From positions 248,001 through 312,000 of the forward strand of contig JAMXDE010000048.1 in NCBI GenBank assembly GCA_026770025.1: a DNA stretch of 64,000 nt. Reading direction: 5' to 3'. The first letter of the stretch is position 1. Every line of letters starts with the position of its first letter. Positions 1 to 46,995 of this stretch are shown here, piece after piece. The translations under genes were made by a program, and so were the position numbers. The notes under the pieces are model-generated. The model had not been told where the DNA came from, searched no databases, and saw nothing but the letters and a program-made list of their open reading frames with translations. This stretch comes from Craspedostauros australis (taxonomy: Eukaryota; Bacillariophyta; Bacillariophyceae; Mastogloiales; Achnanthaceae).

Positions 1-3000
1 TCTCCATGTAGAGGCGAAATTGTGTCCCATGAAACAAATGTGCCCCCTCATAAGTCGTTGACGCACATTCTTTGCTTCATCAAGGCGCTCTGGTGCTCTT
101 AATGTCGTATCACTGACTCCATGCTTCGAACATCTGGAGGGCACCACATCGGCCAAGTGCGTGATTGTGTCTGTTTGCACACCAAGACATCACCATCTTT
201 GAGCTGTTAAGTCAGGCTCGCACTTTCGTGGATCAGATCACACAATGGCCAATCACAATCCGCAGTCTGTCGACGAGTTTGCACCACGTCAACACAAAAT
301 AATTTAGATCCGGATGTGAAGCACCCAAAATGCCAGAACCAAGACGCTTCGGACATGAACTTCTGGGTCCCACCACCACCTTCACGATTTGGGCTTGGGC
401 AGAGTGTCGCACACGAATACTCTACGAGTAACTCGTTCATGCGCACTGAGCAAACGGCGGAAGAGAGAAAACAGAAGGCGAACAGCCTCGAGGACAAGAA
501 TGGCCGCGCTGCGAATCTGCGATGCCATCGCAACTTGGATCCGCACCCATGTCCATGGCTTCACTCTCTCACTCCTGCAAGTACGAGCCATTCTGCTCTG
601 CTCCACGTTACACTGTTCTGTTCTAAACCTCATCAGCTACCGCCTGCACGTGAAAGCACGGTAGCTCGTACAGTGGAGTATCAGTACATTGTACTGCGTG
701 TGAGGATATCTCCATCTGAATGTGGGTCTGAAGTTGGGTCTCCGATCGCCCAAGCGCCCCGCTGAGCGAAAGAGAGAGAGAGACGACGACGACGAAGACG
801 ATGACGGAAACAGTCGTATTCAAAATGTCTTCACATCCACCATGGCATCTTGACATCTTGACATCTCGAACACCTTCACGCCGGGTCATCAGCGGTGGTG
901 CTTTGCACGATTGGAGTCAGCAGCTACGCTCCTTTCGTGTTCAATGAACATCCTTGGTACGACCAATGTCATCATCCATGGACGATGAGCACATCCAGCT
1001 CGCTCGTTCCAAACATCTCACCCGGCCATCGGCATGCGTGTCACGCTTGGCATGATCGACGAAGAACTCAACCATGAATTCAGCCATGAACCCAACCTCT
1101 CGCACAGCCAACACACGACTCCGATCTCTTCATCTGTCTTCCTCTTACCCTTCCCGTCCAGCCAATGATGTGATACTGACCCATTGACAATTGGAGTTTG
1201 GAGGTCAGCATGTGAGCCGGACCTTGTTCCATGGCTCCACAACGTGGCGGCTCACCGATCGTATCTGGACAATGAAACGGATGCATTCTGGAGCATCAGC
1301 CAGGTGGTTACGAGGACTGCGAGCTATTACATAGTAGATGAATATGCCAGATTGTTCATGTATGTGGAGGCGGGAAGGCTGAGATCAAGACGATCAACAT
1401 GCATCACGTAAGCAACGCAATTGCATGGCTAGTACCATCAGCAGATGACCAGCTGGTGAGAAATGCTGGGAAGTTGGAGGGCCCAGCAATTGCACCTGTC
1501 CAGCAATACAATGCAAGGTGATCTCGTGCAAACACTGGGGCAGGGGCAACCAACGAAAACTGCATCGGGAATGCACATACTGGCACATACCAAGCTATCT
1601 GATCACTGGCTGAGAAAAGAGACTCATTATGAAGCATGCAGCCAGGCCATTAAACAGTCATGCGGCCATACAGCTGGTCAAATGAGAAGAGACAGTTGTC
1701 TTTCCATAATGAGACACGGGTCGGCATCATGCAAACATGCGATGTCATGCACGTATTCTGCCGGTAGGTGCCCCCATTAACAGCAGCAACAGCAGGTAAG
1801 TGTATCGTAGGCAATCTTGCCTTGGTGGACCTAGCGGTCAGCTGTCCACAAGTATCTGCGATGCGGATGATTGACGCATAGGCAGGGTGACTTGGTTGGC
1901 TCGTACTCTATCCCACACTCATTCTACTCACTCACGTCTATTCCTCTTCTATCTACGAATTGATGCCATCAGGAGAGCTACGCGGCTGTTTGCAGCGAAC
2001 TTTGCCCCAGCAGTCGTTTTGAAGCGGTTTGTTCCCCTCGACAATTCACAACAGCGAGACTGTGCAGCGACGTCACGGCCGCCCAAGAGATCTCATCAAT
2101 AATCCTTCCTTGCGCAACTAGAGATCGCATGCTCCCAATTCTGCATCATGCTGGGAGTGAGTGTGACGCATTGCAGATCACTTGGCGTTGCTCCATCGGA
2201 CTTCGTCGTTTCTTCTCTCACACCATTACGCCATGGAGGCGAGCAAGATGATTCTTTCCCATCGTGGTGAAGACTCAGAGAGAGAGAGAGAGCGAGAGAG
2301 AGAGGAATCCCTGGTGATAAATCTTGATAGAGCACGGCTGTATATATACCATGTGAGAAGTACTTGCACTTCCGTTGCCGCTTCCAACCATGGCGGATTC
2401 TTGTTGAGTACAGGACGCAGGGCTACTTCGGATAGCAAAAATTGGATGACAACTGTCATCGGCTGCAACCCGTTCGGGGTCTCTCATCTTTCCAGAGCAA
2501 CGCGTGTACTCTGCTCATCTTGCACCGACCACCCACTTCACATGGGTAGTGTGCATGTGTATGTGTTCTGTTAGTACTCTTGGTAATGTTATACTTCGTT
2601 GGAGATGCAGAGACTGACATCTCTTTCTCTACTTTCCATGGCGCAGTTCGATGCGCAGTTGTTTGTTAGGCCACAACCGCTTGTGCTGGTGAAATGGCAC
2701 TCATGAGTAGAATGTTCAAACATTTGTCGCGGAGTTGCGTACGATGATACGTTTATTCGTCAGGGATAGTATAATAGAATACTTGAGAATGCAGCTGACC
2801 ACGGCAAAGTGTGTAATCTGGTGCACTCCGACCATCGCAACATCCGGTGGAAGATGATGCTCGCCCTACCTGTCACGTGGCTGATGGCGGTGGACGGCCC
2901 GATCTGCGTAACCTCACTTGTTTAAGTCCTGCACCTTGTCACCGCTTTGCAACAGTCTCGCGTGTACATATTCTCTCTCATGGAGAGCACGCGTGTGTTG

Positions 3001-6000
3001 TAACTATTGTGGGACGCGAAACAAGGCCTGGCTCGTTCCTGCGAACGCGTCGGTGCCATGATAGTGGACTGGGACGAAACAAGAGGGCAAAAAGCCGTGA
3101 CAGGACAAGGAGAATGGATCCTTGGGCTGTTCGCGATCCTGGTGCCGAAGATGTGAGGTCTTGTGGGCTGGGGGACGAAGTGCTGTATGCTGTTCGTTGT
3201 TCACATGACGGAGCCTCTATTCTTCTTTTGTGTACTCGTATGTCGTTGGATTGTTGAAGAGGAGTTGATGGACGTTTGTATACAGGTACGCAATGCGGAT
3301 ACGTGTGGTCAACAACCAAGTCCGATGCCTGATGTATGTGGCGTGTGGCGGGTTGCGAACCATCCACTGACGTCGCCATTTGCTCGCTGTCATGCAACTT
3401 GGCAGGATACGACGCAGCCCAAAATCGACTTGACGGCGCCGTGGAGCGAATCGCTTCGACCTGCATCAACATGCCTGACCGCACGGAGAAGAATTTGGCG
3501 CAATTCGGAACCGAAGGCAGTACGATTGATGTCGGGCTCAATGGAGAGAGAGAGAGAGGCTGGCTTTGGATGGCTGTGGGGCGTGGTGCATGCGATGGGC
3601 GATGGAGCACGCGGAAGCTCAATTCGAAGAATCGATAGTTCGATGTAATGGGCATGGTGTTTGGAATAGTTGGACAGCAAAGGGTATCATCGCGTGTCGT
3701 GCAGGGGTGCCATGCGGAGCTGCCGTGCGGGGATGGCGGAGTATGGTACCATGCAAAGACGGGTGTGCTCGTTGAGTCCTCATGGTCGCGTGTGGGAGCC
3801 TCGTCGGAGTGTGGCAACAGATTCGCTTCCCTCGCGATCACGTCGTTGTGCTCTGTTCGGATCTGTTTGGAGAATGAACGTGGACATGGATGCTGCAATG
3901 CCATCTCATGCAGCGTTGGTGTCGGCGTCGGCACTGGCTATGCTGTTGGCGCGGATCCAGCCTTGGGCTGCCAGCAGCAAGACCATTGGAGCTGAAGTAG
4001 GATCTTCTCGAGATGTCTCTCTCCAAGATGTTGGCCCCCGCCCGGCCACGAGGCGTTGATGTGACTATGTGCCGATCCGCCAGCCAGTGCCCTTTGCCTT
4101 CTGCTCAACCTGTCGCTAACCTCCATGCCCAATCAAAGTTGAGTGTGGCACGGATTTTCGGCTTGGTTTGATGCCAGTTTTCAATCACAAGGAATCGATG
4201 GTCTCATGGCGAATCAGCAAGGCCGTTGTCACCATGATGGAAGGCTGGTAATACAAAGACTGCATATTGTGGCTCGGTGTGTTGAAACGCCTGTGGGTTC
4301 AGTTGATGGACGGAATCGTCGTTTGAAGGTGTTGCAATGGCAATGTAATGCAGATACGGATGAGGACATAGATGGCATGATGTGGTGTCCATGGCCTGGT
4401 TGTTGTTCATTTGCCGATCCATGGGATGCTGACTCGGGGGAACGATTGGTTATTGACGGCTTGATTGTGTTTCTGCGCTTGCAAGAGGGTTTACCTGTCG
4501 TGGTGGTGGTGGTGGTGGTGCTTCAGCTGCTCAGTCGTCGTGGTCCGGAGCGTACCACCCATCTGATTGCATCTGATTGCATTCATCCTCCTGTGTTTGG
4601 CTTTCTTGCGCTGGAAGGAGCTGGCGGATCACAGTGTTCTGAGCGTGTCGAGAGTGCGCGAAGCTGCAGCGTGGACGCGCAACACGATACGAATGCGCGT
4701 TGTTGCTGCGATGTGGTGCTGATCACGTCCTAACCACACAAATAGAGAGCACGGATTCGACAGAATGTACGGTAGCGGTACGAGCCACGAGGTCAGGGCC
4801 AACGAAGATTGACAATGACCCGAGTGCCGTTTGGCCATGTTCGGAGGCGTTCTCTGTTGCGCTTCGACACAAAAAGAAGGGGGACGCATTGGTGCGGTGC
4901 AATCACATCGGTGGTGGGGAGGTGACGCGCGACTCCTCTCCTCGCACCGTACCATACCCTCCACATACTCTTACCAATACCACACGATAGTGTGAGTTTC
5001 GTCTTCGTTCAGCCCCAGTGCGCAAAGTGCCATCCACAAGAGAACATGACGTGATGCATCGCAAAGTACAGAAATAGACCGCATCACTGCCCCAGACTTT
5101 GCTTTTCTTCCATTTGTCGGGGCTGGTCCGATTTCCCTTCACGATGTGCATCTGTTTGCGTTCAGCAACACTACTTGGTGGTTTCACAACAGGTTTGTCC
5201 GTTCGGTTTTGCACGTATTTTATCATACTTGGGAGAGAAAAAGGTGCTCGTCCCGCACGTCCATTGCGTCGCAACGTTCGCAAATTACAGAACTCTTGGC
5301 ACAGAAGGGCACAGGAACTGGTCCAAAAAAGGTAGCTGCCTCGTTGCGGACATCGCAATCACATTCATCCCAGCCACCCATTTCTGCGTTGTGTCCTTCC
5401 ATCACAAAGCGCCATTGTTGCCCCTGGTGCTGACCGCTGTCGTCGTCGTCGTCATCATAGTCTTTGGGGATGCGTTCTCGACGCCAAAGTTCCGTCACTT
5501 GCGGGAAGCTGCTGGTTGGTTCCAAGGCACGAGCACAAAAAGACGCATCATCCACCACCAAGATGCGGCAATAGTAGAGCATACAGCCCAATTCACGAAG
5601 TGATACCGGGAATAGACAGAACAAATATGCTCAGAACCAACCACAGTTTACCTCAACTGTTCCACCCGGAAATGTCGCAAATGCCCTTGATGTACTCCAA
5701 GAGAGAAGCTTCTCTCCGCCAAGACATGACTCAGAGGAACCCATTGAAACCTTCTGCCTACACTACAGGTACATTTGTGGCGCTACCGTCATTAATACCA
5801 CCAGCATTCACTGATTCGACGCACCCACCGTGTTGCTTCGCACGCCCGAGATTCTGCAGGGCACTGCGCGTAAGTTTTCGACGGACTGTTGCCCGCGTTT
5901 CAATCAGTCAACAATCCCATTGGCACGGTCTGTCTGTGTAGCTTGTTGCTTGATTAACAGACATTCAAGACAGATCGCGCAAACGAAATGCAACAAACTG

Positions 6001-6301
6001 ACAGTGACATGACGTGGAGATACTGTGTATCATTAGTAACGCGTGTCTGCCAGTCAGGTGTTGCACAAACAAAACTTCATGAAATCGGTACGACCTTCGT
6101 CAGGTACAAAGTTGAAACACGAAATCGGGAGACCGTTCATCGCGACCAAACGCAACACGCAAAACGACACAAAACAAATGATGTCGGAGCACAACAAAAC
6201 AAGAAGACAACATCGCAACAATCTCAAATCAGCACAAGCAAGGCACCACCCTCCGAGTCGTGCTCATACAGAACAGTTGATTGAACAGAAGGGACGCAAA
6301 G
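1..6301. other. Gene-poor left flank
   Basis: No open frame in this 6.3-kb stretch shows a recognisable domain or the codon texture of the real genes further right. The longest open frames (2978-3934 on the minus strand, 4143-4733 on the plus strand) are rich in Ser, Arg, Pro, His and Cys in the way chance frames are. What can be seen is simple sequence: a GA tract followed by GAC repeats at about 772-800, a GA tract at about 2277-2306, another at about 3544-3557, and a GTG tract at 4500-4520. The last few hundred bases probably include the promoter and 5' leader of the eIF3j gene that starts at 6302. Confidence 0.5.
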
Positions 6302-7402
6302 ATGGGTGACAACTGGGACGACGGCAGCGACGACGAATGGGATGTCGACGATGACATTCTCGAGCAGCGCCTTGGGCTTGCGAACAAGGATGACGAGGAG
6401 GAGGTCGATCTGGCCTTCAAGATGAAGGAGGAGAAGGAGAGGAAGGAGCAGGAGGAGCTCAAGAAGAAGGGAGAGGCCCTGGCGGCCAAGAAGAAGGCCG
6501 AGAAGGCCAAGCAGGAGGAGAGGGAGCTGGCCCTCAAGGTGCTGGAGGTCGAAGCGCAGATGGAGGCCAACATGACGCTGGACGAGCGCAAGGAGATGGA
6601 GCGCAAGCGAGTGGAGGATGCGGACAATGCGCTTGCTGATGAGCTCTTCGGCGGCGCCGGTGCAAAGAAGGGAGCGGCAGCAACTACCAAGGGCGCTGGT
6701 GACCAGCTCGCCCTGATGACTCTCAAGGATCACTTGAAGCATGCCAAGGTTGTTTCCGCGGCCTTGAAGGTACGTCAAGCAGATCAACTTCACGTTGAGT
6801 GAAATTGTTTGTGGACGAATGTTCATTGATGTATTCTGCCATCCACTATGACGTTCCTGCTCTGCATGGTTTTCGTCCTGCCGATGCAAGAATAACGCGA
6901 GAAGAGCACAGCATTGACTCTAGAGATTCCGCGCTCAATTCATGACATCATGCGCGCACACATAATATTATGAGTTATCTGCTGCCGTTGCTACGCTCTC
7001 CTGGACTCACTCACCCATTCGCTCACGCACTCACTCGCTCACTCTCCTTCTTCTTCTTCTTCTTCTTGTCTTCTCCACACTGGCATTGCTTTCGCGGTAC
7101 AGAAACACGGAAAGACGCTGCTGGCCACCACATTTCTGAGAGAGGTGATACAGGGGAGCAAGGACACCCTGGATGTCAATGCCATCTCGGAGCTCATCAC
7201 TGCCTGTAACGTCATCAAGAACGAGAAGATCCAGGCGGACAAGCGAAAAACGAAGAACCAGGGGCCGAAGTCCAAGAAGGCGGAGAAGGAGGCGCAGGCC
7301 AAGGCCAAGAAGATTCATGACGAGACCTTCGGGGACAACAACGAGTACGATCAGTACGATGAGATCGGCGAATCCTACCAGGATGATTACGACTTCTTCT
7401 AA
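6302..7402 (+). CDS. EIF3J: Eukaryotic translation initiation factor 3 subunit J (eIF3j/HCR1)
   Basis: This is the loosely bound J subunit of eIF3, which acts in the cytoplasm at the 40S decoding centre during initiation and ribosome recycling. The gene has two exons, 6302-6769 and 7103-7402, joined in phase 0. The intron 6770-7102 starts GTACGT, carries a TTC-rich pyrimidine tract at about 7047-7068 and ends CAG. The product is 255 residues, close to the human protein (about 258). It opens with the family's acidic tryptophan-containing start (MGDNWDDGSDDEWDVDDDI), then a long charged helix rich in Lys and Glu (about 40-120), the conserved core around DHLKHAKVVSAALKKHGKT at the exon junction, and an acidic tail ending DDYDFF. 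The ATG chosen gives this conserved start directly. A foldback transposon begins 149 bases after the stop. The assignment is firm; the intron is inferred from the frame and the splice sites. Confidence 0.95.
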
Positions 7403-7551
7403 GGTGTCCCCGTGTGGCCCATCGCGCATCCAGCTGGTGCATGCATCCGTGCGAGAATGCGTGGATAGGAGAAATGATGGGCTTGTTGGCTGGCAGCATT
7501 GTTGTAACTGGTAGATCTTCGCATCGTGCACAAAACCAAAGTGAATGAAAT

Positions 7552-7604
7552 GAGGAAATTCACTAACCAGCCTTTTTGAAGTGCCGATTTGCACTAACCA
7601 GCCT
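7552..7604 (+). repeat. Left terminal inverted repeat (perfect outer 53 bp)
   Basis: These 53 bases are identical to the reverse complement of 9767-9819. Within them the word CACTAACCAGCCT occurs twice, about 31 bases apart. Such repeated subterminal words often serve as transposase-binding sites, which is an inference here. Beyond this block the arms still match with scattered differences. Confidence 0.85.
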
Positions 7605-8419
7605 ATTTTGTGTTTCTTAGCGACTCAAAACGTCGAAATGTCCATGCGACATCCCACGGACATAGATATTTCGCATCGCCCCCAAGGCTAGTGTATCAAT
7701 GTAGACTACTTGTATCACACAGGAAAAGTAAAAGCCACATCATCCATGTTTGTCATACTTGTAACATTATGTCATTAATTCGTCCATACGAACGTACTTC
7801 ATCTAATGAAGGGAATTAATGCCTACGTAGTCGTAGATATGTGCATCATTTACCTGTTTGCTCCAATTTTGTACGTTGTGGATCGTATTCTGACCAAACC
7901 TTCATAGGAAAGGATAAACATATTCCATCTAAACAAGATAAGCACATCGAGAGCATTCCAATGGGTAGAATTCCAGCTAGCGAGCATCTTTATCCATCTG
8001 GGAGAGATGGTGATATCCAAATCTATGAACCTCGTCATACTCAGCGCTACGCTTGACGCTGCACAATCTTCTGCACATCTACACATTCCTCAGGCCATTT
8101 TGTGAGATCCGACCAGCGGCATTACTTCAATCACACTCCAAAGAGTACGGCCATAGATTTTGAAGTCCTTGATCTGTTTGGAAGGCATCTAATTGTACGG
8201 ACGCTGATATCACACGCTACTGAAGTGTGCGCATCACACTGCACATCGTTGTGAGCATATGTGCACAGAACATGTCGATCATATTCCAATTTGACAATTC
8301 ATCGACTCCGAACGCACTCCATAGAGGGCGGGCATGGAGTTCGAAGCCGTACACCCGTCAGCAAGGTGTATCGACACGCGCCCAGGTGATCCTCATGTCA
8401 CGACGCCCCTAAGTGCCAC

Positions 8420-9080
8420 TTGACATCAACATCCGGAAAATTGGATTCCTTCCGAACGGATCAAGGACTTCAAACTCCATGGCCGTAGCCTTTGGAGTAT
8501 GTTTGGAGTGATTCCGTTGATCGCATCTCTCAAGATGGATGGCCGAAGGCATAGATGTGCGGAATACTGCTCAGAGCGATGCCTACCGTCCAGACGCATC
8601 CCACGCAGTAGTGTGTGACATCAGCATCCGTAAGACTGGATCCCTTCCAGACGGATCTTGCATTTTAACCGCAATTTGCGTACTCTTTGCAGTGCATTCG
8701 GAGTGGCCAAAGTTTTCGATTGGAATATGATCGACGTTTTCTATGCATATATGCGCAGAACGCTGTACAGTGCGAGGCGTATCGTTCAGTACCGCGGGAT
8801 AGCATCATCCATGAAATTGGATCCCTTTCAGATGGATCTTGCACTTCTAACTCCATAGCCATACTCTGTGACGTGTGATTGGAGTGGTTATAGTGTTGGA
8901 TCGGAATACGATTGATAGTTCCTATGCGCAAATATCCAAATCACTGTCCAATGCGATGCGTACCATTTAGGACTGCGTGATATCAGCATCCGTTGAATTA
9001 GATCCCTTCCAAAGGGATCTAAGACTTCAAACTCCATGACTGTACTCTTTTGAGCGTGATTGGAGCTACGCAGTTGGTCA
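8420..9080. repeat. Internal tandem repeats of about 170-195 bp in the foldback element
   Basis: Diverged units recur with anchors at about 8431, 8626, 8817 and 8988, each centred on an ATCC / GGATCCCTTCC-like core followed by AACTCCATrgCC-type sequence. The core GATCCCTTCCAAAGGGATC at about 9001-9019 is itself nearly palindromic. Related units make up both arms, so the interior looks like a small satellite arranged as a foldback rather than a decayed gene. Confidence 0.7.
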
Positions 9081-9766
9081 GATCTCTCAAAACTGCCTGC
9101 CAAATGCATAGATATGTGGAATACAGTACAGCATCAAGCGTAGCGCTCAGTATGACGAGGTTCATAGATTTGGATGCCGGCATTTCTTCCAGAAGGATCC
9201 AGATCCTCGCAAGCCACCCCCATACCCATTGAAGGTCTGTCGCTATGATTACATTTGTAGAATTGCAGATGTTGAATCATTCATATGAAGGTTTGGTCAA
9301 AACCCTGCACACCGCACACAGCTACCATGCGGTATCATGTGATTTGATCGCGCATATTCTGCAACGCCTTCCAGATGGATCCAGTCAATTGCTAGCTGGC
9401 TTTATACCCATTGCAATGCCCTCGATGCGCTGATCTGGTTAAAACGTAATATGTTTATCCTTTCCAATGAAGGTTTCATCAGAATACGATCCACAACGCA
9501 AAGAGTTGGAGCAAACAAATGGATGATGCACATATCTATTACTAATGTAGTCATTATCCCTTCATTAGATGCTATATATTCGTATGGACTATTTACATGC
9601 ATTCTATGGCAATTATGACAAACTGTATGATGTGGTTTGTACTTTCCTGTGTGATACAGGTGGTCTACATTGATACACTAACCTTGGAGGTCGATGTGAA
9701 ATCTCCGTGTCCATGAGATGTCGCACAGACATTTGGACGTTTTGTGCCACTAAGTGTTGTAAAAAC

Positions 9767-9819
9767 AGGCTGGTTAGTGCAAATCGGCACTTCAAAAAGG
9801 CTGGTTAGTGAATTTCCTC
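9767..9819 (-). repeat. Right terminal inverted repeat (perfect outer 53 bp)
   Basis: This is the inverse of 7552-7604 and ends at 9819 immediately before the 9-bp target duplication. Counted from the ends, the right arm is about 180 bases longer than the left up to a shared internal landmark. This fits one extra copy of an internal repeat unit in the right arm. Confidence 0.85.
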
Positions 9820-9828
9820 GAATGAAAT

Positions 9829-11548: not shown

Positions 11549-13515
11549 ATGGCCAGCCTGATGAACATCACCGCGACGAAGGCAGCCATCACCACGAAGA
11601 GCGCGACTTTCCAGATGGTCCTGCAGAGCAAGCAGCGGCGATTGCCGGCCCTGATCCGATCGAAGGCCACCGTCACCACTTCCAATGCAAATGCACCCAC
11701 CAACACTGCGACCGGAGCAGCCACGGGAACGGGGGCCACCCCAGCGCAAGCGCACGCCCAGGCTCAGACCCAAGGGCCGGGACAGGGGCAGTCCGCCATC
11801 AGCTCCACCATGTCGGGCGGTGCCAACCTCACCACCCAGCGTGGAAAGGCCACCATGTCCATGCCAGCATCCAACGCAGGGCTCACCATGACCAGCACAG
11901 CCGCCTCCTCGGCCTCGAGCAGCAGCAGCTCGGCCAAACCATCCATCGCTTCGCTGTGCGCCGCGGCAGCCGCAGGCATCGCCACGGTGGGCTTGGCCGC
12001 CACCGCCGTCGAGCAGCTCACCGCTTCGGACTGCCCGCGCTACTACCATGCCGCCGCATCGCCGCAGGACAACAGCGACATCCACAACAACCGCCAGCGG
12101 CAGCGATTCGACGCATCCACATTCGGGGGACGCTTCGCGCAGATGCTGCTGGCTTGCGATCCGCGGTTGCTGCTCAACACGCCGTCGCAGGTGCAGCGCG
12201 CGCAGGCCTTGCTCGATGATTGGCAGCTGCTTCGTGACGACCGATCGAGGGACCGCGAGCTATGGGAGGCCAAGCGCGTCGTGGAGGCCTCCGTGCATCC
12301 TGACACGGGATCCGTGATTCCTGCGCCGTTCCGCATGTCGGGTTACGTGCCCTTCAACGGACCGATCTGCGTTGCCATGGTGGCCTCCACCTCGACAGCG
12401 CCCATCCTCTTTTGGAGCTTCATCAATCAATCCCAGAACGCTCTGGTCAACTACTACGTGAGTTCCTCAACGACAGCAGCCTTGAGGTTGAGTTTGAGCC
12501 GTGGTTGAACCGAGGTTGCACGCGTCTGCTATGTTACAGCGAGCGCGTTCGCCTTTCCTGTCAACCTGCATGTCTGTGAGCTTGTGGCAAGGTGCTGATG
12601 CTGACGGTGATGCTGATGGTGATGTTTAAGTGTGGAGAAAGGAATGGGCACGGATGCCATGTGAACGCACAGAGGATCGGCACAGACGCTTGAAGATGGA
12701 CATTCCTTTCGTGTTGGTGTGATGACCCATATCGTACACTTCACTCTTGCCAATACCAACGAATACAACTCACATGTTCCCTTTCCATCTTCATCTCCAT
12801 CTGCCAACGATGCTCGTGTGACCACTTCGGTAACAACCACCCCATCTTCATTCCCCTCCCTGCACAGAATCGCAACGCCTCGGCTCCCATGTCCAACGAG
12901 ACCTTGCTGAAGAGCTACGGCGCGGCCGTCACGGCGGCCTTGTCCGTCGCATTCGGGTTGGCCACCGTCATCCAGAAACGATACCCCAAGGAGCAGGCCT
13001 CACGCCTTCTCAAGTGGGTGGCATTCCCATCGGCAGTCGTCGCATCCAGCCTCAACTGCTACATCGTGCGCAGCCCGGAAATCGATGCCGGCATCCCGCT
13101 GCTGGATCCGGTCACGCACGAACCGATCCAGGTCTACAACAACGCAACGGGTACCACCGAACCAGCCCTGTCACAGGAGGCCGCCCGACGAGGCGTCAAC
13201 TCGACCACCGTCTCCCGCGCCATCCTGCAGGCGCCCGTCTACTTCCTCCCGCCGCTCCTGGCTGGAAGCCTTCCGCTCCTCGCGCCCTACCTGCGACGCC
13301 GTCCTCAGTTCGTCGTGCCTGTCACCACCTACCTCCTGCTCGTCAGCTTCGGTATCGGCCTGCCAGCATCCGTCGCCTGCTTCCCGCAGATGGCATCGAT
13401 CGCAGCATCCGACGTCGAACCGCGCTACCAGCATCTCTCCAAGCAGTCCGTGCAGCCCGATGGCACCGTCGTGCACAGGCCGTCTGACTCGTACGTCTAC
13501 AACAAGGGGATGTAG
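11549..13515 (+). CDS. Sideroflexin-family mitochondrial amino-acid carrier
   Basis: Sideroflexins are inner-membrane carriers; the human SFXN1 imports serine for one-carbon metabolism. There are two exons, 11549-12457 and 12868-13515, joined in phase 0 with donor GTGAGT and acceptor CACAG. The product is 518 residues, against about 320 for typical members. The family region starts near residue 187 (FDASTFGGR). It includes HPDTG at 250-254, FRMSGYVPFN, the NQSQNALVNYY segment just before the intron and NRNAS just after it, so the intron splits the family's most conserved motif. Several hydrophobic segments follow. The extra N-terminus is rich in Ala, Ser, Thr and Gln; its first 45 residues are basic and hydroxylated like a mitochondrial presequence, and residues about 133-155 form an added hydrophobic segment. 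The transported substrate cannot be told from sequence. Confidence 0.93.
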
Positions 13516-40986: not shown

Positions 40987-43900
40987 ATGTCGAAGGTCGA
41001 TTGCCCCGAGGCGCTGGCATTGGCTGCGGACCACAGCCGGCGACGGTCCAGCGTGGCCCAGCGCTACCTGCAGAACGTGCAGCTCAAATCCCCGTCGAGC
41101 AGTTCGCGTCGCACGTCCCTGAAACCGAGTCAGATCTTCGGCAGCAACCATAGTCGCAGCGCAATCGGGCCACCGCTGTCCGTCGGCAAAGGGGTTGCAA
41201 CCAGCTCGCTTGGCGATGATGCCAATGATGATGATGATGATGATGATGAACCAAAGAAACAGCCGGAGGAACAATTGAAGGAAGAGCAATCGCAAGAGCC
41301 TGCGAATGGCCCGTCCGCTCCCCAAGATGCATCGAAGGTTCCGACCTCCACATCATCTATCAAGCAACGCTACCTGCATGGATTGCAGAAGCAGCAGAAG
41401 CAGCAGGATAGCAGCAAGGACAAAGATCATGTCTCGCTGCTTCCCAAGGGCGGGAGAGGCGACAAGAGGACGAACCAAAGCAACAACGGCGCTGCTCGCA
41501 GTCCCAGCAAAAGCAGCAAGGATCCTCACAACCATGTGGGAGCATCATCGCAAAGTCCTGAAAAGAATGGCAAGATTGAGAGGGACGCCGATGACACCTC
41601 CTTCGCCGGCAGCCAGCACTCTCGCTCGCATCGCAACGATCGCTGCATGCAAGATCCGTCCCCCAGTCCAATCACGTTGTCGACGCCGACTTCCAAATCC
41701 GCATCGGTGTCGAGGAAGATTTCGAAACTGAGCTCGCCGTGGCTTTCTGCCAAACCGCCTCTGCTTTCGAATAAGGCCGGCGGTGATGCGCAGCAGGGCG
41801 ATGATGACGACGACGATGATGATGATGGCATCGTGTATTTGGATTGGGCGTCGGCGGTGGGATTGCCGTCCAAACACAGCACGCCCAAGCAGTTGTCGGG
41901 ATCGCCATTGCGGCCGCCGCGCTCCTCGTCGAGGCGGCGATCCGGTGCCGATGATGGCTCCGTCAGTCTCAATTCCGCCGACAAGAAGAGTGGCCGTCGA
42001 CGTTCCAAGCAGGGCAAGAAGAAGGGCGGCACTGGCAAGTCCAAGAAGGGCAAGAAGAGCAAGGCTGAGGATCATGACGATGACGAAACGAAACGAAACG
42101 ACGGCGACCAGCAGCAGGAAGAGGAGGAAGAGGAAGACCTGCGGTCTCGCACTCCGTCGCAACGACGGGCCGAAGCAGCCTTGGCTCTGTGCCGAGGTTC
42201 CGGTCACGACAAGCCGGCGAAAACACCCTCCAAGTCGGGTGCACGTCGAAGACGTCTCAAGGGACAATCGTCGTCCCATCGGGAAGAGGATGATCCCGAC
42301 ACCATGGTCGTCACCGTTCCAAAGTTGAGTGGCAGCCGTCATTCGGAGAAGAAGCTCAGCACCAGCCTGCATAAGCCGCTCGCCGTGACGAGCAGCGACG
42401 ATGACGAGCTGGATGGATCCATGTCCACTTTGGGCACCACCGCCAGCGCGGCGAGCCGAATCAGACGCCAGATGCAGCAGGAGCGTGCCATGCTCAAGGG
42501 ACGGTCGTCACTCTCCACGTCCAAGCATAATCGTGATCCATTGGCCATGCCTTCCAATCACCGCAACAGTAACGCCACAAACAGCAACATCAGCAACAAC
42601 AATCTCAGACCATCCGCATCGGCGTTGGCATCCCCTCCGAAGCCACAAAGGGCTACCAAATCGAATGGTTCACGCAGTCCTCGTAAAGTCATAACCCCTC
42701 TTGCACAGGACCGTGCCATCACGAAGCACAAGGACAAAGCTGAGAATGCGGATATTTCCAACCACCCCACGGTCCAACAACTGCAAAAGCGGATACAAGA
42801 GTTGGAGGCGGAGATCGGAGACTTGCACCACAGCCACGATGTCAAGCTATCGTCTGAGGTTGATGCTGCGAAGGCGCAATCACAAAAGCAGATCGATGCG
42901 ATGCAGACGCAGCATGCGAACGAAATGGCGAAGATGACCGAGTCGCACCAGGAGGTCATGGAAGCGCAGGCAAACAAGCTGCAGCTGCTCGAAGAGCACA
43001 AGGCGGAAAGTCAGCAACAGTATGACGAGCACGCGAATGCGATGGCCGCGTTGCAAGAACAGCTGGAAACTGTTCAACAGAAGCTACAGGCATCGACGTT
43101 GCAAAATGAAGAATTGAAAGCGCAGCATGAAGAAAGTCGCCAACAGGAACAGCAGCAACACGAAGCGGCAATCGAGGCATTGAAGGCGCAGCATACCCGG
43201 CACGCATCGGAAATGCAGGAACAGCTCGACGTCACGCAGAAGGAGCTGGATGCTGCCGCCGCACGGCAAGAGGAACGTGCCAAAGGCGATGCCGAAGTTG
43301 CAGAGAAGCAAAAAGCCGAACATGAAGCCAATCTGGCGGCGGAACGTGCCTCCCATGCAAAAGCTCTGGATGTGTTGCAAAGCAAACTGGATTCCGCATT
43401 GGAGTCTGCTGATCAATTGGCACAAGAAAAGACGAAGCAAGAGTCTGATCACGAAACGACTGTAGCAGAGCAAGTTCAAGCGCATGAGGAAGCCGTTAAC
43501 GCCATGACATCGCAGCACGATGCCACAGTCAGTGAAATGCAAACGCAGTTGACTACGGTCAAACAGGAACTCGACGATCTGCGTGAAACGAAAAACAATG
43601 GTGACGCCGAACACACGAATGCAATGGAGAAGCTGCGAGTAGACAACGAAGCCGCAATTGCTTCGTTGTTAGCAGATCATGGGGAGACCATGTCGTTGTT
43701 GCAAACGAAGTTGCAGGTTACACAGGAAGAGTTGGACCAAGCCAAAGAGTCCAACGAGGAGCAAACAGAGCAACTGTCCAAATTCGACGAGATGCAAGAG
43801 ACTCAGCAACGCGATCATCAAACGGCGCTTCAAGAATTGGAGGGTAGCCACACGGCAGCGTTGGTCTCCATGCAAACCGAGTTGGATTCCGCACGGCAGG

Positions 43901-46900
43901 AACTGGAGCAGCTATCGATACAACAACGTGACGCAGATGATCGGCATTCCGAAGCCATTGAGCAGATGGAGACCGATCGATCTACCACGCAGGCAGCTCA
44001 GGAGCAGGAGATGCAGCGACAGAGATCGGAGTATGAGAAGGAGAAGGAATCCATCATTGCGAGCCACGCAGTTGCACTGGAGTCCATGATGACCGAATTG
44101 CAGACGGTGCGGGATGCGTTGCAGGCCTCGCAGTCCGACCAATCTCAGCAAGCCGCCAAGCATGAAGCAGAAATTGAAAGCTTGCAGCAGCAATTGGTCC
44201 AACAAGCCCAAGAACGGGAGTCGGCAACAACCGAGCTCGTTCGGCAGCATGCCGAAGCGTACGAAGCTTTGATATCGGAGCATGCAAGCGAACTGTCCAA
44301 TTTGGCATCGCAGAATGATCAGTCGGAAATGCTGGAGAGTGTCAAAACCAAACACGAGCAGGCGTTGCAAGATCATGAGGCACAGCGGAAGCAACTTGCC
44401 AATGAACATGAATCACAAATTGAGAGCATTCGTGGCGAACATTCCGAAAGCGTTGCGCAACTGCAACAGCAGCTGGATGACGCGAAGGCAAGGCACGAAA
44501 CGACGCAGCAGGAGTTGCATGGCTTGCAAACACAATCCGACAACGACAATCTCCAAATCCAGAATGATCATGAGTCCGCCATTGCTAAGCTGGAGAACGA
44601 TCTTGCCGAGCAACGCAAAGCCGCCGATGAAGCTCTTCACAAGGTACAAGCTGAGCATGCGGCAGAGGTGGAATCGCTGCAACGTAGCCTGAATGCTGCG
44701 ACAGCTCAGCATGAGACGACGCAGAAGGAGCTGCATGACTTGCAAACACAATCCAGCGATGAGAAGGCTCAGATCGCCAATGACCATGAGGCCGCCGTAC
44801 ACAGGCTGGAGAATGACTTGAACGAGCAACAGAAGGGCGCTGATGAAGCTGTTGACAAGCTACGAGCGGACCACGCGACCCAGGTGGAATCATTGCAACG
44901 TTGCCTGGACGAAATGCGAGAGGCCAAGGAGGCTCAGACACAACCACAACCGCAGGACTTTGCGACCGATCAGCTCAAGTCAGAGCATGACAACGCAATG
45001 GATTCCTTGCGTGCGACGTTCGATGAGCAGCAGACGGAGCTGCGCAGCGAACTGGAAAGCGCACAGGCGGAACGAGATGCGAATGCTGCGGGAATGGAAG
45101 ACATGAAACAAGAACATGAAGAGAAGTTGATCTCAATCAAAATACAGCATGAGGAGGAACTTCGACGACTTCAAAACGAATTGGATCAGTTGCGCGAACA
45201 GCATGATGCGAAACTCAAGGCGATGGCAGATTCGGAAACGGCCACAAAGGAACTGGAGGCAGAATTGAAGACTCTGCAAAATCAACAGGAGAATGGGTCC
45301 ACAGATCGGGGTGTACCAGGAGAGTCCAATGATGACGATGCGCAACTGCAGAATCAGCTCGAGCAAGCCCGCGCACAACTCGATGATGTAAAGACGAAGC
45401 TGGACGAAGCGCACGAAGCCAAGTTGACGGCGTTGAAGGAGGAACATCAACAGCAGGTCCAGACCTCGCAAGATGAGATCGCCGACTTCGCAGATCAGAA
45501 GGTGGCATGGAAGGCGCAGCTGGAGGAGCAGTCGCGTCAGCTGGAGGAGGCGGCCGCGATGCGAGCAACGGAAGAGGCATCGTCTCAGCGCGTTGTGGAA
45601 TTGGAACAGCAGATCAACGAGATGGAGCAGTTCATGGAGCAGATCCACGCCAACAACGCCGAACAGATGAGGCAGTTGGGCGATGAGGTCGACGGGAAGG
45701 ACAAGACGATCGAATGGATGAAGCTGGAGGAATCACGCAGGGAAGACGAAGCGAAAGCGCTCCAGCTGAAGCTTCAGGCTGCCCAGGATGAGAACGACGC
45801 GGAAGCAGCGTCGTTTGAGGACAAGCTGAAGGCGGTGATGTCTCAATTGGATTCTGTGACGCAGGAGAATGACACCATCGCGAGTCGACATCAGCAGCAA
45901 CTAACCGAGCTTCAAGAAGCGCTGTCGCAGCAGGAGACGACGGCAAATGACCTTCAGTCGACGAATGCTGACCTTCAGGCTGAGCTCGAATCGACGAAGC
46001 GAGAATTGGAGTCCAAGATGGTTGCCGCAACTTCCACCACTGACGAATCCAACGGTGAAGCCAATGACGCCACGCAGCCACCGAAGGAAGAAGCGGGCAA
46101 GGAGGAATTGCAGGCGGCGCAGCAAGAGCTGGCGCAACTAAAGGAAGCCTCGGAAACGAACGAGTCCGAGCTGCAGTCGAAGATTGCAGAGTTGGAGAAT
46201 GAACTGCACTGCGTGGCCGAGGAGCAGGATGAGTCGCGTGGTCATCTCAAGTCGCTATCCACTTCGATCGCCGAATTGCAGGTGGAGAATATGGATCTGA
46301 AGGCGAAGGTTGCCGCTGCCGAGAAGGAGAGAGAGGAGTTGGAACAGCAACGAAGGCGGCAAGAAGAAGAAGCGGCAAGCAAGGCGAAGGCTGATGGAAG
46401 CATCAGCGATGCCAGTGCGAACGGCGACAACGCGCCAACAAAAAGAGATCAGTCGCAATCGAAGAACGCAGCTCCAGATATCCAGGTGAACACCGATCCG
46501 CACGAGGGCTCTCCCGCCAACGAGCTCAAGGACGTCAAGAGCGAGGTGGAGGAGCTGGAAGTGCAGCTGGCCCTCGCGAAGGGACGGTTGGCGATGCTCA
46601 CGGCGGACGATGATGATCATGACGATGACGATGACAACATCGACATGTTTCAGGATAGTGCTTATGACGAGGAGCTGTCTCACCACGACGAAATCGACGA
46701 CGAGACGAAGACAGAGAACAAACGAGATCCGGCGTCGAGAGCATCATCGCAGGACGATCTCGTGCAGGAGGCCGTCGTGAAGAAGCGCCACCGTAGCTGG
46801 ATGTTCGGCTTCGGCAGCAGCGTCGAATCTGGCGAAAGCCCGACGATATCTCCCACGACGAGTCCCCGTTCATTGATGGCGGAGAATGAGAATCTGAAGA

Positions 46901-46995
46901 GCCAGCTCGTGAAGGTGCAGAGCAAGTACAAGGATGAGCTGTACACCCTGAAGCAGCGCATCAAGGATCTGGAAGAAGGTAAGGAGGAACAGTGA
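40987..46995 (+). CDS. Giant coiled-coil protein, 2002 residues
   Basis: A 6-kb frame without introns. Residues 1-585 are disordered and highly charged, with Asp runs (about 79-89 and 272-281), Lys-rich blocks (RRRSKQGKKKGG, about 335-360) and Ser-rich stretches. Residues about 586-1797 are an almost continuous coiled coil rich in Glu, Gln, Ala and Lys, of the kind seen in golgins, tethers and cytoskeletal scaffolds. Shorter coils lie at about 1847-1872 and 1963-2002. No motor, GRIP, GRAB or other terminal domain is seen, so the cell compartment is unknown. The coil contains a 72-residue tandem duplication (listed separately), and QRYL-type motifs occur twice near the N-terminus. GTAAGG near the stop could in principle be a donor to a further 3' exon, but nothing convincing follows. 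A tethering or scaffolding role is inferred from shape only. Confidence 0.85.
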   Translation: MSKVDCPEALALAADHSRRRSSVAQRYLQNVQLKSPSSSSRRTSLKPSQIFGSNHSRSAIGPPLSVGKGVATSSLGDDANDDDDDDDEPKKQPEEQLKEEQSQEPANGPSAPQDASKVPTSTSSIKQRYLHGLQKQQKQQDSSKDKDHVSLLPKGGRGDKRTNQSNNGAARSPSKSSKDPHNHVGASSQSPEKNGKIERDADDTSFAGSQHSRSHRNDRCMQDPSPSPITLSTPTSKSASVSRKISKLSSPWLSAKPPLLSNKAGGDAQQGDDDDDDDDDGIVYLDWASAVGLPSKHSTPKQLSGSPLRPPRSSSRRRSGADDGSVSLNSADKKSGRRRSKQGKKKGGTGKSKKGKKSKAEDHDDDETKRNDGDQQQEEEEEEDLRSRTPSQRRAEAALALCRGSGHDKPAKTPSKSGARRRRLKGQSSSHREEDDPDTMVVTVPKLSGSRHSEKKLSTSLHKPLAVTSSDDDELDGSMSTLGTTASAASRIRRQMQQERAMLKGRSSLSTSKHNRDPLAMPSNHRNSNATNSNISNNNLRPSASALASPPKPQRATKSNGSRSPRKVITPLAQDRAITKHKDKAENADISNHPTVQQLQKRIQELEAEIGDLHHSHDVKLSSEVDAAKAQSQKQIDAMQTQHANEMAKMTESHQEVMEAQANKLQLLEEHKAESQQQYDEHANAMAALQEQLETVQQKLQASTLQNEELKAQHEESRQQEQQQHEAAIEALKAQHTRHASEMQEQLDVTQKELDAAAARQEERAKGDAEVAEKQKAEHEANLAAERASHAKALDVLQSKLDSALESADQLAQEKTKQESDHETTVAEQVQAHEEAVNAMTSQHDATVSEMQTQLTTVKQELDDLRETKNNGDAEHTNAMEKLRVDNEAAIASLLADHGETMSLLQTKLQVTQEELDQAKESNEEQTEQLSKFDEMQETQQRDHQTALQELEGSHTAALVSMQTELDSARQELEQLSIQQRDADDRHSEAIEQMETDRSTTQAAQEQEMQRQRSEYEKEKESIIASHAVALESMMTELQTVRDALQASQSDQSQQAAKHEAEIESLQQQLVQQAQERESATTELVRQHAEAYEALISEHASELSNLASQNDQSEMLESVKTKHEQALQDHEAQRKQLANEHESQIESIRGEHSESVAQLQQQLDDAKARHETTQQELHGLQTQSDNDNLQIQNDHESAIAKLENDLAEQRKAADEALHKVQAEHAAEVESLQRSLNAATAQHETTQKELHDLQTQSSDEKAQIANDHEAAVHRLENDLNEQQKGADEAVDKLRADHATQVESLQRCLDEMREAKEAQTQPQPQDFATDQLKSEHDNAMDSLRATFDEQQTELRSELESAQAERDANAAGMEDMKQEHEEKLISIKIQHEEELRRLQNELDQLREQHDAKLKAMADSETATKELEAELKTLQNQQENGSTDRGVPGESNDDDAQLQNQLEQARAQLDDVKTKLDEAHEAKLTALKEEHQQQVQTSQDEIADFADQKVAWKAQLEEQSRQLEEAAAMRATEEASSQRVVELEQQINEMEQFMEQIHANNAEQMRQLGDEVDGKDKTIEWMKLEESRREDEAKALQLKLQAAQDENDAEAASFEDKLKAVMSQLDSVTQENDTIASRHQQQLTELQEALSQQETTANDLQSTNADLQAELESTKRELESKMVAATSTTDESNGEANDATQPPKEEAGKEELQAAQQELAQLKEASETNESELQSKIAELENELHCVAEEQDESRGHLKSLSTSIAELQVENMDLKAKVAAAEKEREELEQQRRRQEEEAASKAKADGSISDASANGDNAPTKRDQSQSKNAAPDIQVNTDPHEGSPANELKDVKSEVEELEVQLALAKGRLAMLTADDDDHDDDDDNIDMFQDSAYDEELSHHDEIDDETKTENKRDPASRASSQDDLVQEAVVKKRHRSWMFGFGSSVESGESPTISPTTSPRSLMAENENLKSQLVKVQSKYKDELYTLKQRIKDLEEGKEEQ
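44494..44925 (+). repeat. 72-residue tandem duplication within the coiled coil
   Basis: Two adjacent 216-bp units encode HETTQQELHGLQTQS... and HETTQKELHDLQTQS..., each ending near EVESLQRSL or QVESLQRCL. The copies differ at many positions, so the duplication is not recent. Seventy-two is not a multiple of seven, so copying the unit shifts the heptad phase by two. Confidence 0.85.

Follow-up and report, generated by a model that had tools for sequence, protein, structure and literature searches.

The question raised by this locus is what kind of element forms a long inverted repeat bounded by an exact short duplication, and how an element of this sort might have been moved. The window referred to here is the whole stretch of DNA that was analysed (64,000 nucleotides), and the first-pass annotation of it had proposed a non-autonomous foldback Mutator-like element (MULE). 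We find that the window element is most likely (with a probability of about 0.92) a non-autonomous foldback-type Mutator-like transposon mobilised in trans by MULE transposases of the same genome, and the proposal is supported both by further copies and by MULE-encoding elements having the same ends, which are referred to below as helpers. The features of the locus are as follows, with coordinates given for the window.

7552..9819, no strand assigned: probable non-autonomous foldback MULE of subfamily A, 2268 bp
7543..7551, no strand assigned: left target-site duplication GAATGAAAT (from the sequence and a flank-pair test)
9820..9828, no strand assigned: right target-site duplication GAATGAAAT (from the sequence and a flank-pair test)
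7552..7604, plus strand: left outer inverted repeat, 53 bp, perfect
9767..9819, minus strand: right outer inverted repeat, 53 bp, perfect
7552..8004, plus strand: outer arm alpha, 82% to the other outer arm
9368..9819, minus strand: outer arm beta, just inside the 53-bp end like the distal (3') end of helper MULEs
7870..8366, plus strand: inner arm, 71% pairing with 8824-9318
8824..9318, minus strand: inner arm, 71% pairing with 7870-8366
8230..9819, plus strand: helper-colinear stretch (element positions 679-2268), 64% and E 2e-157 to positions 3125-4762 of helper C2:3703633-3708394, covering part of the 196-bp repeat array, the subterminal part and the 3' end

Structure and setting of the window element

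Re-measurement of the ends bore out the length of 2268 bp and the perfect 53-bp outer inverted repeats described earlier, and the exact duplication on both sides was confirmed at 7543-7551 and 9820-9828. The left 53-bp end contains CACTAACCAGCC twice (7561-7572 and 7592-7603, with a start-to-start spacing of 31 bp) and the right end has it on the minus strand (9799-9810 and 9768-9779); in the family as a whole the 53-bp end contains two copies of a CA[CT][TGC]AACCAGCC motif spaced 31 bp from start to start. The arms, said to pair imperfectly almost to the centre, do so with declining identity: element positions 1-453 pair with 2268-1817 at 82% (E 5e-113), positions 319-815 with 1767-1273 at 71% (E 2e-83), and the centre pairs more weakly (573-1334 against its own inverse, 62%, E 3e-62). 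Plain global alignment of the two halves gave 56% identity compared to 47-49% in five shuffles. The arms can thus be paired over most of the length of the element, as in a foldback, and the terminal inverted repeats are long, as in MULEs (53 bp perfect and 82% over some 453 bp). No ORF of at least 100 aa (ATG, GTG or TTG start) lies wholly within the element and three overlap its edges. TRF detected no tandem array in the element itself because the repeat units are too diverged; alignment does detect them.

Nine window ORFs were scanned, none of which overlaps the element. Judged from these, the insertion site is downstream of an eIF3-subunit-domain ORF at 6281-6802 and upstream of two ORFs at 11549-13515 that have a sideroflexin domain. 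Elsewhere in the window, a 2002-aa ORF (40987-46995) had no Pfam match at E 0.001. The suggestion that the genome is of diatom type is likely to be right, as it is supported by 88 silicon-transporter (PF03842) matches and 61 light-harvesting protein matches. The former profile was over the cut-off in none of 14 control genomes, with one control matching below it, and for the latter one cyanobacterial control was over the cut-off; when two of the light-harvesting proteins were compared with the PDB, the best matches were LHCI chains of 9vfj followed by fucoxanthin chlorophyll a/c proteins. Silicon transporters occur in other silicified protists too. The silicon-transporter family in this genome looks large, and 32 of the 88 matches are long (E 4.3e-228 or better), including four with in-frame stops.

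Copies in the genome and their target-site duplications

The genome (74.8 Mb in 90 contigs) was searched with a 33-bp pattern from the end, allowing up to three mismatches, and this located 74 termini (38 forward and 36 reverse) while the reversed pattern used as a control found none. Pairing the pattern list by hand gave 26 two-ended elements and 22 single ends, so that the other copies anticipated by the annotation do exist. By alignment and end type (for C70 the ends alone were read), the two-ended elements comprise five foldbacks of subfamily A, eleven of B, five of C and five helpers of autonomous type. Subfamily A consists of the window element and copies on C2, C3, C9 and C25, and is 73-79% identical to B and C. 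Over the full length, C9 is 99.3%, C3 95.3% and C2 88.6% identical to the window element, with the C25 copy 99.3-99.8% identical in two pieces; three subfamily B copies are about 77% identical to it, and the five subfamily C copies 73-79% identical over long pieces.

A perfect duplication flanks 21 of the 26 two-ended elements, with 15 of 9 bp and six of 10 bp, and none of the 26 has a perfect duplication of 8 or 11 bp. The prediction of other copies with 9-bp duplications therefore held for the 15, and the six of 10 bp strictly depart from it; both lengths are covered by the range of 8-11 bp that the available text of PMC6446971 allows for MULEs. When flanks were crossed between elements as a control, three of 650 pairs matched (C59/C70 once and L066/L068 twice), and the comparison of 21/26 with 3/650 excludes chance as the source of the duplication. 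It should be noted that the left boundary of L068 was shifted three bases outward on account of small insertions in that end, and that unshifted it fails and the count becomes 20. Imperfect duplications were seen in L026 (9 bp with two mismatches), L057 (10 bp with two mismatches) and C23 (where the poly-T length differs), and C59 and C70 were the elements among the 26 tested with no duplication of their own. The five helpers with both ends include three with perfect 9-10 bp duplications. L066 (C14) and L068 (C13), both foldback C elements, have an identical 9-bp duplication, and as a single target sequence is common to both they are probably one insertion inside a duplicated segment.

These flanks also bear on whether the window inverted repeat is a transposon at all. 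A local inverted duplication of host DNA would account for the inverted-repeat shape and for nothing else, and as the copies elsewhere carry different 9-10 bp duplications we give this explanation a negligible probability.

Candidate helper elements with the same ends

A PF10551 profile search of the genome identified nine loci, seven of which have the same 53-bp end (90.6-96.2% identity), with 1122-1125 bp between it and the nearer domain edge. An element of autonomous type sharing the ends and encoding a MULE-type transposase, which the annotation had suggested looking for, is therefore present. The 662-aa protein of one helper matches PF10551 (MULE), PF00872 (Transposase_mut) and PF04434 (SWIM), all over the cut-off, and Pfam scans of one helper transposase gave no match to a PHD finger (at E 0.01) or to FLYWCH. 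The transposases of the seven loci are 93-99% identical to each other; four loci keep an uninterrupted 662-residue frame, two have part of the protein (521 and 324 residues) and one has a stop. Helper copies are 93.7-96.8% identical to the reference copy, and the helper at C2:3703633-3708394 is 4762 bp long with 350-bp ends at 89%. The uninterrupted frames, together with foldback elements having similar copies at different sites, may reflect recent movement.

The two remaining loci differ from these. At C12 the end is weaker (77%), and at C5 the family end was not found in the stretch read. The C5 (L029) and C12 (L031) transposases are 62-66% identical to the helper transposases and, judged by sequence, form a second MULE family; there is a 196-bp-type array near the C5 locus and a related end at C12.

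The shape of a foldback does not by itself reveal its class, and in the available text of PMC3169594 the Galileo foldbacks are linked to a P-type transposase. The window element might similarly have been moved by another class of transposase (P/Galileo-like or hAT-like) and resemble a MULE merely in appearance, but the 53-bp end is found at seven of the nine MULE-transposase loci and the 21 perfect duplications are all of 9 or 10 bp, and we consider this very unlikely. The annotation had allowed that shared ends might turn up with a different transposase class; the transposase search, made with the MULE profile, placed them on elements of MULE type. Our preferred reading remains that the window element has no transposase of its own and would depend on MULE transposases from other loci of the genome to move it in trans by cut and paste. 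The transposase would recognise the 53-bp end, with the two-copy motif as the putative binding site, and would make staggered target cuts of 9-10 bp. When foldback ends are aligned with helper ends, identity is 94% over columns 0-59 and 48-82% in the 30-column windows between columns 60 and 359.

The repeat hairpin and the origin of the foldback

Between the transposase and the far end, the helper at C2:3703633-3708394 has two arrays of 196-bp repeats which face each other and form a hairpin, with 2453-3265 paired to 4138-3350 (78% in an alignment of 835 columns). The C39 helper is longer, with 11.25 kb between its ends and 21 units of the repeat in the part read. The 196-bp unit has 228 matches genome-wide and, among the matches listed, at least 20 array loci could be recognised by eye (13 in minus-then-plus order, seven in a single orientation and none in plus-then-minus order).

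The foldback arms are related to this hairpin of the helper. Apart from the colinear stretch listed above, a doubled 196-bp unit aligned to the middle of the window element with scores of 186.5 and 142.5 on the two strands, whereas none of 100 dinucleotide shuffles per strand scored above 77. Element positions 351-816 can be aligned to the helper hairpin both ways round (57.5% plus and 62.8% inverted), and their scores against the transposase region of the helper are no better than those of shuffles; no foldback hits were found in that region (helper 350-2573) at E 1e-4. The window element thus resembles a diverged copy of the repeat-side half of the helper with both ends and without the transposase. 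The simplest reading of these alignments is that it may be an old internal-deletion derivative which has kept both ends and the hairpin. A helper would have lost its transposase by internal deletion, bringing the 5' end next to the hairpin array and 3' end, and this would have preceded the split of subfamilies A, B and C. When five foldback ends were compared with helper ends across their first 330 bp, with the 53-bp end included, identity was no more than 70.9-84.0%, and the foldback and helper ends therefore have no recent common source.

Alternatively, the 3' (repeat-side) end of a helper may have undergone inverted duplication, as could happen through template switching during gap repair. 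Element positions 1-816 are 67% identical to the 3' end of the helper when this is inverted, and 351-816 fit the inverted side better, but the helper is already a hairpin so that no new inversion is needed. The two arms also differ in a way this origin does not lead one to expect: in a comparison using two copies from each of the three subfamilies, the beta arm just inside the 53-bp end is 78-88% identical to the distal helper end, whereas alpha is not similarly close in any subfamily (67-74%) and is 71-78% identical to the transposase-side end. We regard the inverted-duplication origin as rather unlikely, though deserving of consideration, and prefer the internal deletion. It should be noted that the match of 351-816 in either orientation and the slightness of the lean of alpha towards the transposase side leave the deletion origin unproven.

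Conflict between the 53-bp ends and the arms

The most unusual feature of the family is that the 53-bp ends of the three subfamilies each match a different set of helpers (0-2 mismatches), a pattern at odds with the tree of the arms. In a tree of arm positions 54-330, alpha and beta each form a group that takes in all three subfamilies, and the helper ends stand separately (support of 97/93 for beta and 100/99 for the helpers, with alpha weak at 85/37), and A and C join before B in both the alpha and the beta arms. The tree covers 51 of the 74 ends (46 of 52 paired and 5 of 22 single); it leaves out C4 and C23 at the distal end, and C70 and the 9.5-kb copy on C10 at both ends. With A 73-79% identical to B and C, and helper copies 93.7-96.8% identical to their reference, the foldback subfamilies look to have arisen earlier than the helper copies now in the genome.

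The outer 53 bp group unlike the rest of the arm. Among the nine foldback ends tabulated, the typical B end has no mismatches to C2b, C23 and L027 and one to L026, the C-type end is one mismatch from the C4 helper and the A-type end two from the C39 helper, with 3-5 mismatches in the other foldback and helper combinations; a further A-like end (X_L064) is two mismatches from C39 and 6-7 from the rest. The end type is the same at both ends of nearly all foldback copies, with the B copy L035 having a mixed end, and the C11 helper end is a B/C hybrid. Topology tests on positions 54-330 rejected a grouping of B foldbacks and B-type helpers (p-AU 0.001), and on the outer 53 bp they rejected a grouping of all foldbacks (p-AU 4.4e-5; from 50 ends, with the L068 left end dropped for indels and one set of identical rows unconstrained), though these p-values are lenient since the groups were picked after inspecting the ends. 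Placed on the inner tree, the outer sites need 34 changes where the minimum would be 13. Ten outer sites are variable and four of these (12, 13, 43 and 44) are the same two positions in both motif copies. The picture is not a tidy one, however, as B foldbacks and B-type helpers do not form a single clade in the best outer tree (p-AU 0.077) and the C11 and L035 ends are of mixed type. We suggest, tentatively and at somewhat less than even odds, that in this parasitic lineage of foldbacks the ends track whichever transposases move it, either as coevolved recognition sites or through conversion of ends from helpers.

Unusually long copies

A 10.2-kb copy on C25 (L020/L021) and one of 9.5 kb on C10 (L022/L023) were considered as autonomous versions and rejected, as each is a foldback split by an insert. 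The paired long direct repeats are 96.4% identical over 616 bp in the C25 insert and 100% identical over 632 bp in the C10 insert, and each insert is bordered by a short duplication of some 5-6 bp. These paired repeats and the short duplication make them LTR-retrotransposon-like in appearance, and three ORFs scanned from the inserts had no Pfam match. L024 (C10:1973272-1979174) is a 5.9 kb foldback B with a centre of about 3.7 kb that has no match to the family, and three of its 12 listed ORFs were scanned, yielding one weak Hamartin match below the cut-off. Two further foldback B copies, L060 (C59:320282-325261) and C70:23989-28968, are 4980 bp each, and the C59 copy has an extra centre of about 2.7 kb with 18 listed ORFs. 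The left flank of the C59 copy equals the right flank of the C70 copy over 10 bp, reflecting either an exchange between copies or an assembly swap.

Comparison with known foldback and MULE systems

Foldback MULEs are already known elsewhere and the diatom family is a further case of that type; the comparisons below draw on the parts of each account that were available. Tm1 Mutator/Foldback of root-knot nematodes (PMC3169594) likewise combines a MULE-domain helper with non-autonomous foldbacks, and has composite ends common to both and 9-bp duplications. However, Tm1 has tandem units of 13-15 bp within the TIRs whereas the 196-bp units are internal here, and its transposase has FLYWCH (Phantom-type) where the diatom helper has SWIM and no FLYWCH match. 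Rehavkus (PMC6446971) has a minisatellite before the 3' TIR, in the manner of the 196-bp arrays of the diatom helper, as well as a 9-bp duplication, and the diatom TIR falls within its 26-400 bp. In contrast, a PHD finger is reported for Rehavkus and none was found in the diatom helper scanned, and its hosts are arthropods and annelids (the comparison is by description and not by tree). The family is therefore near Tm1 in concept and near Rehavkus in the helper minisatellite, with the helper scanned having the transposase features of neither.

MULE-Diatoms (group 37 in PMC6446971) shares a stramenopile (diatom) host, one ORF and a SWIM finger with the helper, but its TIRs are 123-124 bp compared to about 350 bp, and the available entry, again compared by description, gives 'No TSD and not indicated' against the 9-10 bp seen here. 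Tetris of Drosophila virilis (PMC4079207) is a foldback with internal tandem repeats of about 220 bp and 8-10 bp duplications, for which the available account knows no transposase-encoding copy, whereas the diatom genome has candidate helpers. FARE of Arabidopsis (cited in PMC3169594) is also a foldback family with a MULE-domain transposase, though in a plant host. Among diatoms, MULE elements are abundant in Nitzschia inconspicua, where the expansion is called unique to that species, and foldbacks are unmentioned in the available part of this account (PMC8329260). Our search of one literature library, by title and the start of the abstract, found no diatom foldback transposons, and further searches returned nothing closer than the systems compared above among the matches listed.

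This diatom-type genome has a MULE foldback and candidate helpers side by side, with clear 9-10 bp duplications, and the family provides a direct link between the internal repeat hairpin of a helper and the foldback form. If the ends of the foldbacks do follow the transposases that move them, the three end types would be a natural experiment in binding specificity, and if they match three transposase specificities, the family would lend itself to testing how changes in helpers are tracked by the non-autonomous elements that rely on them.
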